Of a stretch of DNA of 37,124 nt, positions 11,715 through 37,120 are shown piece after piece. The translations under genes were made by a program, and so were the position numbers. The DNA is from a virus, in IMG/VR virus record IMGVR_UViG_3300011253_000628, positions 1 to 37,124 of that record; one strand, given 5' to 3'. The number at the start of each line of letters is the position of its first letter. The first letter of the stretch is position 1. The notes below the pieces were generated by a model. The model worked only from the letters and a program-made list of their open reading frames with translations. It was not told where the DNA came from and ran no database searches.

Positions 11715-12011
11715 ATGGATCCTGAACAAGCCCGCACCCTCCGAGAGTTCCTGGAGCTGGAAGCAGTCCGCGCCGACGACGAGGTCCACCTCGCCCGCCA
11801 GGCCGCCGGCCAGTCCAAGCTCGGCTCCGTCGTCGAGACCGCGGTCAACGTGGGGTCGGGCTACCTGCTCGCCCTCATCACACAGCCCATCATCTACTCC
11901 TACTTCGGCCTGGAGATCAACATGGGGCAGTCGGCGGCGGTCGCCCTGGTCTTCACCACCCTCTCCCTCATGCGGTCCTTCGTGGTCCGCCGGATCTTCA
12001 ACGCCCTATGA
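11715..12011 (+). CDS. Small two-TM membrane protein (DUF7220-like)
   Basis: A 98-residue protein with a charged N-terminal helix (residues 1-35) and two hydrophobic segments, GYLLALITQPIIYSYFGL and AAVALVFTTLSLMRSFVV, followed by RRIFNAL. The pattern VNVGSGY...FGL...GQSAAVALVFT...RSFVVRRIF closely matches a family of small phage membrane proteins (DUF7220) common in tailed phages; their role is not established. It could serve as a holin, since no other clear two-TM candidate is present. The ATG at 11715 was chosen over the GTG at 11628 because the latter lies in a hairpin and adds an unlikely N-terminus. The stop overlaps the homing endonuclease start (ATGA). Confidence 0.72.
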   Translation: MDPEQARTLREFLELEAVRADDEVHLARQAAGQSKLGSVVETAVNVGSGYLLALITQPIIYSYFGLEINMGQSAAVALVFTTLSLMRSFVVRRIFNAL

Positions 12012-12433
12012 TCGAAGACATCAGCCGAATGCCGCGCTACCCCTCCCTCGAGTACCTCGGGGGTTTCTTCGACGGCGAGGGTAGTATCGGGATCTTTAGT
12101 AGCAGCCTCTGCGCCCGCGTGACCAATACGGACCTCCATGTCCTGGAGGCGTTCCTGGCTGAGTGGGGCGGCTCCATCGTCCCCCACACCGCGGCTGGCC
12201 CCAAGCGAAAGGAGTGCCACCAGTGGAAGTGCTACGGACAGAACGCCGAGGACGCCCTGACGGACCTGTTCCCCCACCTCCGCGAGAAGCGGATGCAGGC
12301 TTTCATGGGGATCGAGTACCGCCGCCTGCTCCCTAAGGACCCTAAGCGCCCTTGGATCGAGCGGGAGATCTCGACCCTCAAGCACCTCGGTAGGAAGAAG
12401 ACAACCCCTTGGTCCCTCATTGGGGCACTGTAG
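12008..12433 (+). CDS. LAGLIDADG homing endonuclease, free-standing
   Basis: A 141-residue protein with one LAGLIDADG motif, YLGGFFDGEGSIGI (about residues 16-29), whose aspartate and glutamate would bind catalytic metal. Later parts (AFLAEWGGSIV, KCYGQNAEDALTDLFPHL, KRMQAFMGIEYRRLL) match the spacing of single-motif LAGLIDADG proteins, which act as homodimers. It is not inside an intron or intein: flanking genes are intact and the ATG overlaps the upstream stop (ATGA). Free-standing homing genes spread by cutting related phage genomes that lack them, usually near their own position. The product could instead have become a regulator, but the motif is well kept. Confidence 0.88.
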   Translation: MIEDISRMPRYPSLEYLGGFFDGEGSIGIFSSSLCARVTNTDLHVLEAFLAEWGGSIVPHTAAGPKRKECHQWKCYGQNAEDALTDLFPHLREKRMQAFMGIEYRRLLPKDPKRPWIEREISTLKHLGRKKTTPWSLIGAL

Positions 12434-33486: not shown

Positions 33487-33761
33487 TCTATCGCGTCGAC
33501 TTCCTCGACCACTGCCAGGACTACAATATGCCGGTCGAGTGCGCTGTCTATGGCCTGCTCATCGCGGAGGACGAGGAGAGCATCACACTCGAGGTGTGGT
33601 CGCACACAGACGACGACCAGCGGGAGGACTTCGGGAACGACAACTGCTGCTTCACCCTGGTCCGTGGGGCGATCAAGAGGCTGACCCCCATGTTCGAGGG
33701 CCAGCCTGTAGATCACAACACCTTCCCGCTTAGTACATCGTCGGTCGGACGAGCTGGATAG
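33483..33761 (+). CDS. Small hypothetical acidic protein after the terminase
   Basis: Unrecognised 92-residue acidic protein (MIYRVDFLDHC, SITLEVWSHTDDDQREDFG, then CCFTLVRGAIKRLTPMFEG). The body, alternating strands and acidic turns, fits a small beta protein. The last 10 or so residues are encoded antisense to the end of the opposite-strand gene at 33730-35232, with a 32-base overlap, so the original C-terminus may have been replaced when that cassette arrived. The ATG overlaps the terminase stop (ATGA). T7 has the small gene 19.5 here, but there is no visible similarity. Confidence 0.65.
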   Translation: MIYRVDFLDHCQDYNMPVECAVYGLLIAEDEESITLEVWSHTDDDQREDFGNDNCCFTLVRGAIKRLTPMFEGQPVDHNTFPLSTSSVGRAG

Positions 33762-35232
33762 CCGGGTCGTAGGGGTCGCCCACGTTCCCCTTCCAGACCA
33801 GAGCGGCCTCGAGGAACGTCGGGTCCTCGCGGATCAGATCGTACAGCGGGTAGTAGCCGTCCCTGAAGGGCGGCAGGTCGTCGGCGAGGTGCGGGTACTT
33901 CCTGAAGTTCGTTCCCCACCAGGGGCTCTCGTAGGCGCTGATGGCCGTAGGGACGCTGGTGTGGGTGCCGCGCTGCATCGTCTGCCGCACGTTTATCAGC
34001 TCCAGCTCGAGACCGCCCAGGCGGCGCATCGGGACGTACAGGAGGTCAGCCTCGCGGGACCTACAGGAGTCGGGGTTCCCGTACTGCGGGTCGACCCCCA
34101 TGTTCATGACGAGCCCTGCCGGCGTGACGACGTGCCGAATGAACTCCCGCAGGAAGTCCATCCAGTGCTCGCCCTGCGTGTTGATCTGGACCTTCTCACC
34201 GAAGCCACCCGAGCCGCGGGTTTTGTGGCTGAGGTAGGGGATCGACATGGCGAAGCAGCCGACCGCGTGGGCGAACCCTCGACCGCCGCGGGACCAACCC
34301 TCGCCGCCAGGTCCCTCGATGACCTGCCAGAGCGGCTGGAACAGAGCGTCGTCGGAGGCGTCCCCGTCGAGCCAGCAGCAGAAGTCGTTCCAGTAGTGCT
34401 CGACCAACACGATGCGGGCGAACACGTCACGCGGCGCGAGCATACCGGGGGCTGCGGTGGCCCGGTGCATATGGTCGGCGTTGTGGGGCTGGTAGGTCTG
34501 CAGCTCCTCGAGGGACGTGAAGTCCGGCTCGTGGCCCTTCAGGAACACGTTGGACCTGCCGCACCAGTAGGGTCCTTCGGGCTGGTAGGGGGCGAGGGTG
34601 TGCTCCTCGTAGTAGGCGAGCGGGGTGCGGGCAAGCTCCGCGAGGAACTCCAGCTCGGCCCAGCGGTAGCCGTCGCTGTAGGCGCGCTGCCAGCCTTCGG
34701 GGCCGAAGTGGTACGGGCCGACCCGGTAGCCGCCATGGCTGCCGTTGAAGCTCGTGGTGCCCTTGACCTTGGGGGTGCCGATGGTGTAGTCACCGACCTG
34801 CTCGATGGTGTTGTAGCCGCCATCACGGAAGCCGTGGTAGCCCTTGGTCGCCAGCTCGGAGTGCCACCACTCCGGGGAGCAGGGGGCGGGCTCGGCGGTG
34901 GGCTCGTAGAAGTCCTCGCCCCAGGTCTTGCGGCGAGCGAAGGTACCCGCCACCCGGATGCCCCCGGGGCCACCGTCGTGGAGGGTGACCATCTCGTCGC
35001 CCTGGGAGATGATCTGCAGGGAGTCCCACAGCAGGTTGCCCGTGCCGGCGAACCCGTTGATGAGAGCCACGGTGACGCGGCGGCTGTCCTTGTAGCGGTC
35101 CCAGCAGGCGATGACCAGGGCTCCCTTGAACTCCTGGCGGACGACGGAGAAGGAGTAGTCCCCCTCTGTCCACTCTCCGGGTTGGAGTTGTAGGACGTCG
35201 CTGTCCCAAGCGATCTGGATGAACTCTCTCAT
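33730..35232 (-). CDS. Unknown 500-residue protein paired with a sulfatase
   Basis: Unrecognised protein. Residues 1-110 are beta-rich (VLQLQPGEWTEGDYSFSVV, IRVAGTFARRKTWGEDFY). The rest is helical and rich in Trp, Tyr, His and Gly: PHNADHMHRATAAPGML, RIVLVEHYWNDFCCWLDGDA, WSRGGRGFAHAVGCF. Short helices separated by aromatic, His- and Arg-rich loops recall alpha/alpha-toroid glycan-active enzymes (lyases and hydrolases), but no family motif is secure. There is no signal peptide or membrane segment. It overlaps the sulfatase stop by ATGA on the - strand, so the two are translated together and probably act on the same substrate. It converges on, and overlaps, the last + strand gene. A receptor or capsule depolymerase role is a hypothesis. 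Confidence 0.7.
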   Translation of the reverse strand: MREFIQIAWDSDVLQLQPGEWTEGDYSFSVVRQEFKGALVIACWDRYKDSRRVTVALINGFAGTGNLLWDSLQIISQGDEMVTLHDGGPGGIRVAGTFARRKTWGEDFYEPTAEPAPCSPEWWHSELATKGYHGFRDGGYNTIEQVGDYTIGTPKVKGTTSFNGSHGGYRVGPYHFGPEGWQRAYSDGYRWAELEFLAELARTPLAYYEEHTLAPYQPEGPYWCGRSNVFLKGHEPDFTSLEELQTYQPHNADHMHRATAAPGMLAPRDVFARIVLVEHYWNDFCCWLDGDASDDALFQPLWQVIEGPGGEGWSRGGRGFAHAVGCFAMSIPYLSHKTRGSGGFGEKVQINTQGEHWMDFLREFIRHVVTPAGLVMNMGVDPQYGNPDSCRSREADLLYVPMRRLGGLELELINVRQTMQRGTHTSVPTAISAYESPWWGTNFRKYPHLADDLPPFRDGYYPLYDLIREDPTFLEAALVWKGNVGDPYDPAIQLVRPTMY

Positions 35233-36890
35233 GCGGTGTACGGCTCTCCGAAGAAGTTGGTGTGGTAGACCATCAGCTCGAGCAGGGCTCGGCCTCTGGC
35301 GGTGGTGGCACCCTCGGCGTCTGCGAGGGCGAATAGGTCGTTCGACTCGTCCGGGTCAGCGGAGAGGTCGTACAGGTCGAAGTTGTCGGCGGTGACGCTC
35401 TCCTCGTAGTGGCGGCGCAGCTTGTAGCCCTCACCGTCCGTGGAGGCTGTGGTGCCCACGACCGACATATCGAAGTTGTCGAGCACGGTCGTCGGCCCGT
35501 GGGCGTAGCCGGTCTGGAAGACGACGTGGTGGGTGAAGAGCTTGGTGCCGGTGGCGCTGCCGGTGCGGAAGGCGTCGGCGAAGGAGACCCCGTCGATGTA
35601 CTGCTCGATCCCGTGCTGCTCGCGCCACTCGGGCTTGATCAGGTCCAGGATGGTGGGGTACATATCGCAGCCGTCGATGTAGCGATCACAGTCAGTCCCC
35701 TCGAGCGCCGGGGGGATCGCGGCCCCCCAGACCAGCAGGGGGCTGAGGATGCCCTCGTCCTTCGTGGAGCCCTTAGCGTCCTCGGCGATGTGGTACTGGT
35801 CCCCACTGACCGTGCCGTCCGAGGTCGGCGGGATGACGTTGGCGTAGGTTGCCCCCAGGGCGGCGAACTCCGTGGTGGTCCGCGGGGTCAGGACCGACGT
35901 GTCACCACCGTTGTCGGCGTAGTGCATGAAGGTCGTCTTCGCGTACTCGTCGGGGTAGTTCGTCTCGATGAACTCCTCGATCTCCTTGGTGAGCTTGTCG
36001 ACGCACTCCATGAGAGCGATGTAGCGACGGAAGACCAGGTGGACCTGCCCGTTGATCCCATAGGGCTCGCCCGCATCCACCACCGGGACGGCGATGGTGC
36101 TGTTGGCAGCGTAGCCGCCGTCGCCAGTCTCCCCGTTGTTGCCCGCCGGGTCATCCACCAGCTCGGCCTGGGTGTAGGTCGTGTGCATCGAGACGTTGCG
36201 CGTCTGGAAGGGGTCCTTCAGCTCGTGCGTGGTCGCCAGGTACGGCCAGTTGCCGTGGGGGAGGTTCATCTCGTAGTCGACCACGAAGGGCTTGCCTGCG
36301 TCGACCGCGTCCTTGATGAAGTTCGTGATCTTGTTGTACATCAGCGCTGGGCTGAAGATGTTCGTGGTGCCCTCCCCCGGGAGGTCAGTACCGGAGATGT
36401 ACTCCGACTGAGCCGTGCGGGTCGTGTAGACGTAGGGGTAGCTGTAGTACCCGTAGTCAGGCTCGCCGGGAGTTCCGCTGGTGTTCGTCAGCAGGGCCTC
36501 GTGGGACTCATCGAAGCCGAGTTCGTCGACGATGGCTCGAGGGTTGAGCCGGTTCGTCAGGGTACCGCCGGCCTGCGAGTAGTTGAAGAGGTGGTGCTTG
36601 CCGAACATCCCCTTGAGGTGCCCAGAGCCAGCAGCCACCGCGGGCCACGGGTTCTGGTCGGGGGTGATCCCCTTGTAGAACGGGAACTGCCCGGTCGTCA
36701 CGTTGCCCAGGACGTCACCGATGCCGGTGCCGAAGGGGTGGGCGTTGGTCCTGTGGCCCTGCCGACCCGTGTAGATCTCGGAGCGCGTGGGGGCGCAGCG
36801 GGCGTCGACGCGGAACTGCGTGAACCGCAGGGCGCGAGGGACCACATCGGACTCGAGGTGCGGCTGGTCGGCGTAGGGGAAGCTGCCCAA
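35229..36890 (-). CDS. Formylglycine-dependent sulfatase, N-terminus in another frame
   Basis: Type I sulfatase (553 residues from the TTG at 36890), which removes sulfate esters. The catalytic signature is RCAPTRSEIYTGR, with the cysteine (codon 36797-36795) that becomes formylglycine. Other family motifs in order: FGKHHL (normally FGKWHL), LPHGNW, DNGGDTS (metal Asp-Asn), AKGSTKDEGILSPLLVWG, DMYPTILDLI and DLYDLSADPDESNDLF. The N-terminal aspartates that complete the metal site are not in this frame; the frame is open back to 36944, and the expected start lies in the neighbouring frame (see 36930-37044). There is no signal peptide, unusual for bacterial sulfatases, which are mostly exported. 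A host formylglycine-generating enzyme would be needed. Confidence 0.9.
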   Translation of the reverse strand: MGSFPYADQPHLESDVVPRALRFTQFRVDARCAPTRSEIYTGRQGHRTNAHPFGTGIGDVLGNVTTGQFPFYKGITPDQNPWPAVAAGSGHLKGMFGKHHLFNYSQAGGTLTNRLNPRAIVDELGFDESHEALLTNTSGTPGEPDYGYYSYPYVYTTRTAQSEYISGTDLPGEGTTNIFSPALMYNKITNFIKDAVDAGKPFVVDYEMNLPHGNWPYLATTHELKDPFQTRNVSMHTTYTQAELVDDPAGNNGETGDGGYAANSTIAVPVVDAGEPYGINGQVHLVFRRYIALMECVDKLTKEIEEFIETNYPDEYAKTTFMHYADNGGDTSVLTPRTTTEFAALGATYANVIPPTSDGTVSGDQYHIAEDAKGSTKDEGILSPLLVWGAAIPPALEGTDCDRYIDGCDMYPTILDLIKPEWREQHGIEQYIDGVSFADAFRTGSATGTKLFTHHVVFQTGYAHGPTTVLDNFDMSVVGTTASTDGEGYKLRRHYEESVTADNFDLYDLSADPDESNDLFALADAEGATTARGRALLELMVYHTNFFGEPYTA

Positions 36891-36929
36891 CCAGCGGTTG
36901 AGGACGTCGTAGTAGGGGCAGGATAGAGC

Positions 36930-37044
36930 GGCTGACGACGTCCATCATGAAGAGGACGAGATTGCCGCGCGCGGGGCGCTGGGGGACGGAACCGAGCGTC
37001 TGACGGAGCGCGTTGGCGCGCTGGTTGTGCTTGGGATACGGCAT
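36930..37044 (-). pseudogene. N-terminal piece of the sulfatase in a shifted frame
   Basis: The ATG at 37044 opens MPYPKHNQRANALRQ and continues to RGNLVLFMMDVV, which matches the first strand of sulfatases (N-(I/L)-(V/L)-x-(I/F)-x-x-D-D). From about 36944 the neighbouring frame reads WTSSAALSCPYYDVLNRW, then LGSFPYADQ, which is the expected continuation. So one gene seems split by a shift near 36947-36935, next to the metal-binding Asp-Asp. Causes could be a real mutation, an assembly error near the contig end, or recoding. The frame A continuation down to 36715 is a shadow and not coding. Confidence 0.7.
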
Positions 37045-37057
37045 GGGGGCGTGTCGA

Positions 37058-37120
37058 CTACAGGTGTAGGCGATTACTTGGGGTGTGAAGGGGTCTGGAG
37101 GGTTCTGCAGGGGCCTACAC
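37058..37120. repeat. Inverted repeats near the right edge
   Basis: CTACA-GG-TGTAG at 37058-37069 is a short palindrome, and GTGTAGG at 37064-37070 can alternatively pair with CCTACAC at 37114-37120. They lie upstream of the - strand sulfatase, in the last 80 bases, and could be an operator, a leader hairpin or a terminus element. No convincing promoter boxes were seen on the - strand here. Confidence 0.35.

Follow-up and report, generated by a model that had tools for sequence, protein, structure and literature searches.

The 37,124-base stretch of DNA analysed here (the window), an uncultivated-virus record in IMG/VR, carries near one end a gene that we read, with a probability of roughly 0.88, as a phage-borne S1 sulfatase bearing an ordinary one-base frameshift and a separate Asp-to-Val change. 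One surplus base at or next to a CCCC run would separate the reading frame of the first ~43 codons from that of the ~560 that follow, and the change of the second calcium-ligand Asp to Val would be a substitution independent of it. The sequence as given would yield either a short out-of-frame peptide or a protein started at TTG and lacking the Asp-Asp strand, and no active sulfatase.

A sulfatase gene read in two frames

The gene lies on the minus strand and can be read only by joining two frames, the break being located 206-209 nt from the contig end. This agrees with the earlier sequence-only reading, which had proposed that a frameshift close to the end of the contig divides a sulfatase gene. 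The first frame opens with an ATG at 37044, runs through GNLVLFMMD, reads GNLVLFMMDVVSRSILP before its resemblance to sulfatases ends, and closes at a stop at 36715. The second frame reads WTSSAALSCPYYDVLNRW, includes PYYDVLNRW and continues down to 35229, where the sulfatase ends. In this second frame, a TGA is found immediately 5' of TGG, and no ATG, GTG or TTG occurs before a TTG at 36890. The main part contains CAPTR (the motif in which Cys becomes formylglycine), GKHH, NLPHG, DN and AKGSTKDEG. The relevant features are:

36919..37044, minus strand: 5' part of the sulfatase, with ATG start, MPYPKHNQRANALRQTLGSVPQRPARGNLVLFMMDVVSRSIL; GNLVLFMMD-V-RS--P is homologous to the four homologues; codon-usage signal from ~37050 to 36950
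36940..36948, minus strand: Met-Met-Asp, ATGATGGAC, with the first metal-ligand Asp present
36937..36939, minus strand: GTC, a Val codon, where the alignment places the second metal-ligand Asp; Asp in four of four homologues
36915..36918, minus strand: CCCC run (GGGG on the plus strand), site of the frame change; best-scoring one-base placement, tied with the adjacent 36919; the window has one nucleotide more than the homologues from MMD to NRW
35229..36914, minus strand: main part of the sulfatase, a single open frame from YYDVLNRW to the stop
33730..35232, minus strand: 500-aa ORF sharing 4 nt with the sulfatase gene at its stop

Four homologues sharing 47-62% identity with the sulfatase domain of the window were identified in other viral contigs. 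A related-locus search returned IMGVR_UViG_3300030095_004938 (L002/L006), which is 57% identical by tblastn and 62% over the aligned domain. IMGVR_UViG_3300032257_000325 (L004; 50%), IMGVR_UViG_3300032277_000022 (L003) and IMGVR_UViG_3300032373_000071 (L005; both 47-48%) were added using a two-sequence alignment. All four are unbroken and encoded in a single frame. They are not independent of one another, as L003 and L005 are near-identical in the region of the break.

Position and origin of the frame change

The consensus of the homologues across the break is NLVL[FW]MMDD[VT]xRSxxPxYDxxNRW (n=4), the metal site being continued by MMDDVPRSMIPYYD or MMDDTGRSQMP(S/M)YD (L002, LVLFMMDDVPRSMIPYYDAENRW; L003 and L005, LVLWMMDDTGRSQMPSYDDFNRW; L004, LVLFMMDDTGRSQMPMYDDLNRW). 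The break had been placed exactly at the Asp-Asp, yet the first frame keeps matching the homologues for eight further codons beyond MMD. These codons read VVSRSILP and include the Arg, Ser and Pro that are invariant in the alignment, thereby moving the frame switch to ~25 nt downstream of MMD. The score of VVSRSILP against the homologues (19) was equalled by only 49 of 63,019 random 8-mers taken from the six frames of the window. Furthermore, when all one-base placements were scanned, the best homologue score was obtained at CCCC (36915-36918), tied with 36919. Codon usage, expressed as log-odds trained on the window's own genes, supports a switch between about 36950 and 36930: in sliding windows of 12 codons the coding signal lies in the first frame between ~37050 and 36950 and in the second frame from ~36930 onward, and over the disputed stretch the first frame averages +0.24 log-odds per codon, the second -0.26. 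The placement, residue-score and codon tests agree, although they were chosen after the alignment had been seen.

The sequence-only reading had explained both frames by the loss of 8 nt between two copies of TGGACG in an ancestor encoding MMDDWTSS. Such a deletion has the merit of accounting for both frames in a single event while preserving the Asp-Asp, and the TGGACG arithmetic holds in the sequence, whereas the one-base reading has to assume two differences, an insertion and the Asp-to-Val change. The comparison with the homologues nevertheless makes it improbable. MMD and NRW are separated by 57 nt (19 codons) in all four homologues and by 58 nt in the window; the spacing would be 66 nt in the proposed ancestor, which would be three residues longer than any homologue and devoid of the invariant R-S--P. 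Even with one three-residue gap allowed, this ancestor scored 36, 28 and 33 against three homologous segments, whereas the one-base reading reached 58, 42 and 47 and thus scored higher against each homologue. Its codons fall below background in the codon score, and the match of VVSRSILP would be left to coincidence. WTSSAALSC, taken to be the normal continuation of the enzyme, matches none of the four homologues, and the Trp expected after the Asp-Asp is absent from all of them.

Recoding had also been put forward. Slippage on proline codons makes CCC C a plausible site for a +1 slip, the more so as the next codon, CTA, is disfavoured here; programmed or spontaneous +1 frameshifting at this site would give the full protein from the unchanged sequence. 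However, the conserved frame break expected of a programmed +1 gene is seen in none of the four homologues, there is no stop codon at the shift site, and the product would retain Val at the second metal ligand. Recoding is thus very unlikely, since no homologue is frame-broken and the other catalytic residues are intact.

The other two options offered initially, a dead gene or an assembly error, were the sensible choice. We infer that the cause was an ordinary one-base event, arising either as a sequencing or assembly error or as a recent mutation. An error near the contig end is slightly favoured, at about even odds, because the break lies ~200 bases from that end, the Val codon is a second unusual difference only 20 bases from the break, and no other frame break was noticed in the window, 98% of which is covered by ORFs. 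On the other hand, a run of four Cs is a weak error site in short-read sequencing. A recent inactivating mutation in the phage itself is a real possibility, if a somewhat less likely one. The gene would not have been decaying for long, as its other active-site residues are kept and the 560-codon remainder is open. A search of viral contigs for near-identical sequence across the break, in which the gap was allowed to vary, found none. The frameshift itself, being an ordinary indel, is of little importance; it teaches that homologues, rather than an expected motif, should decide where a reading frame is broken.

Active site and family membership

The window protein resembles the S1 (formylglycine-dependent) sulfatases of PF00884, including those of PDB entries 6uss, 7oza (YdeN), 9s8f and 7stt (PyuS), in its CxPxR (CAPTR), DN, GK-H and AKGS--EG motifs and in its C-terminal sulfatase stretch. 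It differs from them in being frame-broken, in carrying Val at the second Asp, and in scoring below the PF00884 cut-off. The read-through protein remained below this cut-off despite being 62% identical to L002, which, like the three other homologues, scored above it. Using phmmer, the main part matched the PDB sulfatases 6uss and 9s8f, and a profile built from the five sequences matched eight solved sulfatases. An AlphaFold model computed from the same five sequences had a mean pLDDT of 37 and was not usable. Searches for relatives of the window protein or of the L002 domain among 50,697 deposited phage records, and an alignment search of GTDB genomes, returned none.

Calcium is bound in PyuS by Asp15, Asp16, Asp276 and Asn277 together with formylglycine (PMC8746622). 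By comparison with these ligands, which include Asp16, the Val encoded at 36937..36939 replaces a metal ligand of the window enzyme; the first Asp, the third Asp and the Asn are present. With its second calcium ligand missing, the window copy would be a broken relative of the S1 sulfatases and not a working member. CAPTR, common to all homologues, occupies residues 83-87 of the read-through, and no change is seen in GK-H, in the DN further on or in the AKGS Lys. In terms of positions, Cys83, Arg87, Lys149, His151, His263, Asp377, Asn378 and Lys424 are the same as in the homologues. The Lys and His positions are presumably catalytic in this family.

These conserved pocket residues, carried in a long intact frame, could also be expected if translation from the TTG at 36890 produced a shortened protein with a non-catalytic function, for instance in binding sulfated glycans. 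This protein would lack the first strand of the fold and both of its Asp ligands, which are retained in every homologue, and we consider such a function highly doubtful. Homologues starting internally without the Asp-Asp, which would have counted against the sequence-only reading by its own terms, were not encountered: all four keep it.

Phage context and related sulfatases

The window encodes a T7-type RNA polymerase, a head-tail adaptor and a terminase large subunit, as identified with PHROGs, and is a T7-like phage contig. From the terminase to the right end, it is filled by a minus-strand pair composed of the 500-aa ORF and the sulfatase. The two genes are likely cotranscribed given their shared strand and 4-nt overlap. 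For the 500-aa ORF, searches of Pfam, PHROGs, NCBIfam, phage records and viral contigs gave no match. Furthermore, neither the window terminase nor this neighbour matched the other sulfatase-phage records, L003 and L005 included, in a search run without a positive control.

The window sulfatase is related to domains of other uncultivated phages that either stand by themselves or form part of a long protein, probably of the tail. In L003 and L005 the domain is stand-alone as in the window, but their genes are intact and read MMDDTGRSQMP, while that of the window is broken. In contrast, the sulfatase forms the C-terminus of a 1381-aa protein in L002 and of a protein of at least 967 aa in L004. 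The corresponding fused ORFs are found at L002:1649-5794 and L004:1-2904. The 1381-aa ORF follows a tape-measure-like ORF, and a gpJ-like ORF lies two ORFs further on, suggesting that this sulfatase is borne by the tail. Unlike this position within a tail module, the window sulfatase is encoded on the strand opposite to the window's structural genes.

Sulfatase has been mentioned as a viral auxiliary gene in deep groundwater (PMC10029852), and some Pseudoalteromonas phages encode a formylglycine-generating enzyme (PMC10232697). No phage tail sulfatase was found with the terms used, in literature covering few subscription journals. We consider it an even chance that the window gene belongs, as a stand-alone copy either recently broken or mis-sequenced, to a clade of phage sulfatases, carried on the tail in some phages, that desulfate polysaccharide, extracellular or on the host surface, as the phage adsorbs. 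The enzyme may sit in the tail and remove sulfate from a polysaccharide coat. Phage-carried sulfatases, one of them in a tail module, would be candidate openers of sulfated polysaccharide coats, and the group is modestly interesting in this respect.

Three further observations concern the window. By eye, positions 1-473 encode the C-terminal portion of an integrase resembling tyrosine recombinases, truncated by the contig start, which suggests a temperate T7-like phage. At the opposite end, just upstream of the sulfatase start, lies a perfect 8-nt inverted repeat, GTGTAGGC/GCCTACAC (37064-37071 and 37113-37120). Together with the integrase fragment, it could conceivably mark an attachment site, or else a terminator, though a repeat this short may be due to chance. 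Finally, an ORF at 12008-12433, with small genes on one side and the portal gene on the other, contains a GFFDGEGSI motif and appears by eye to be LAGLIDADG homing-endonuclease-like.
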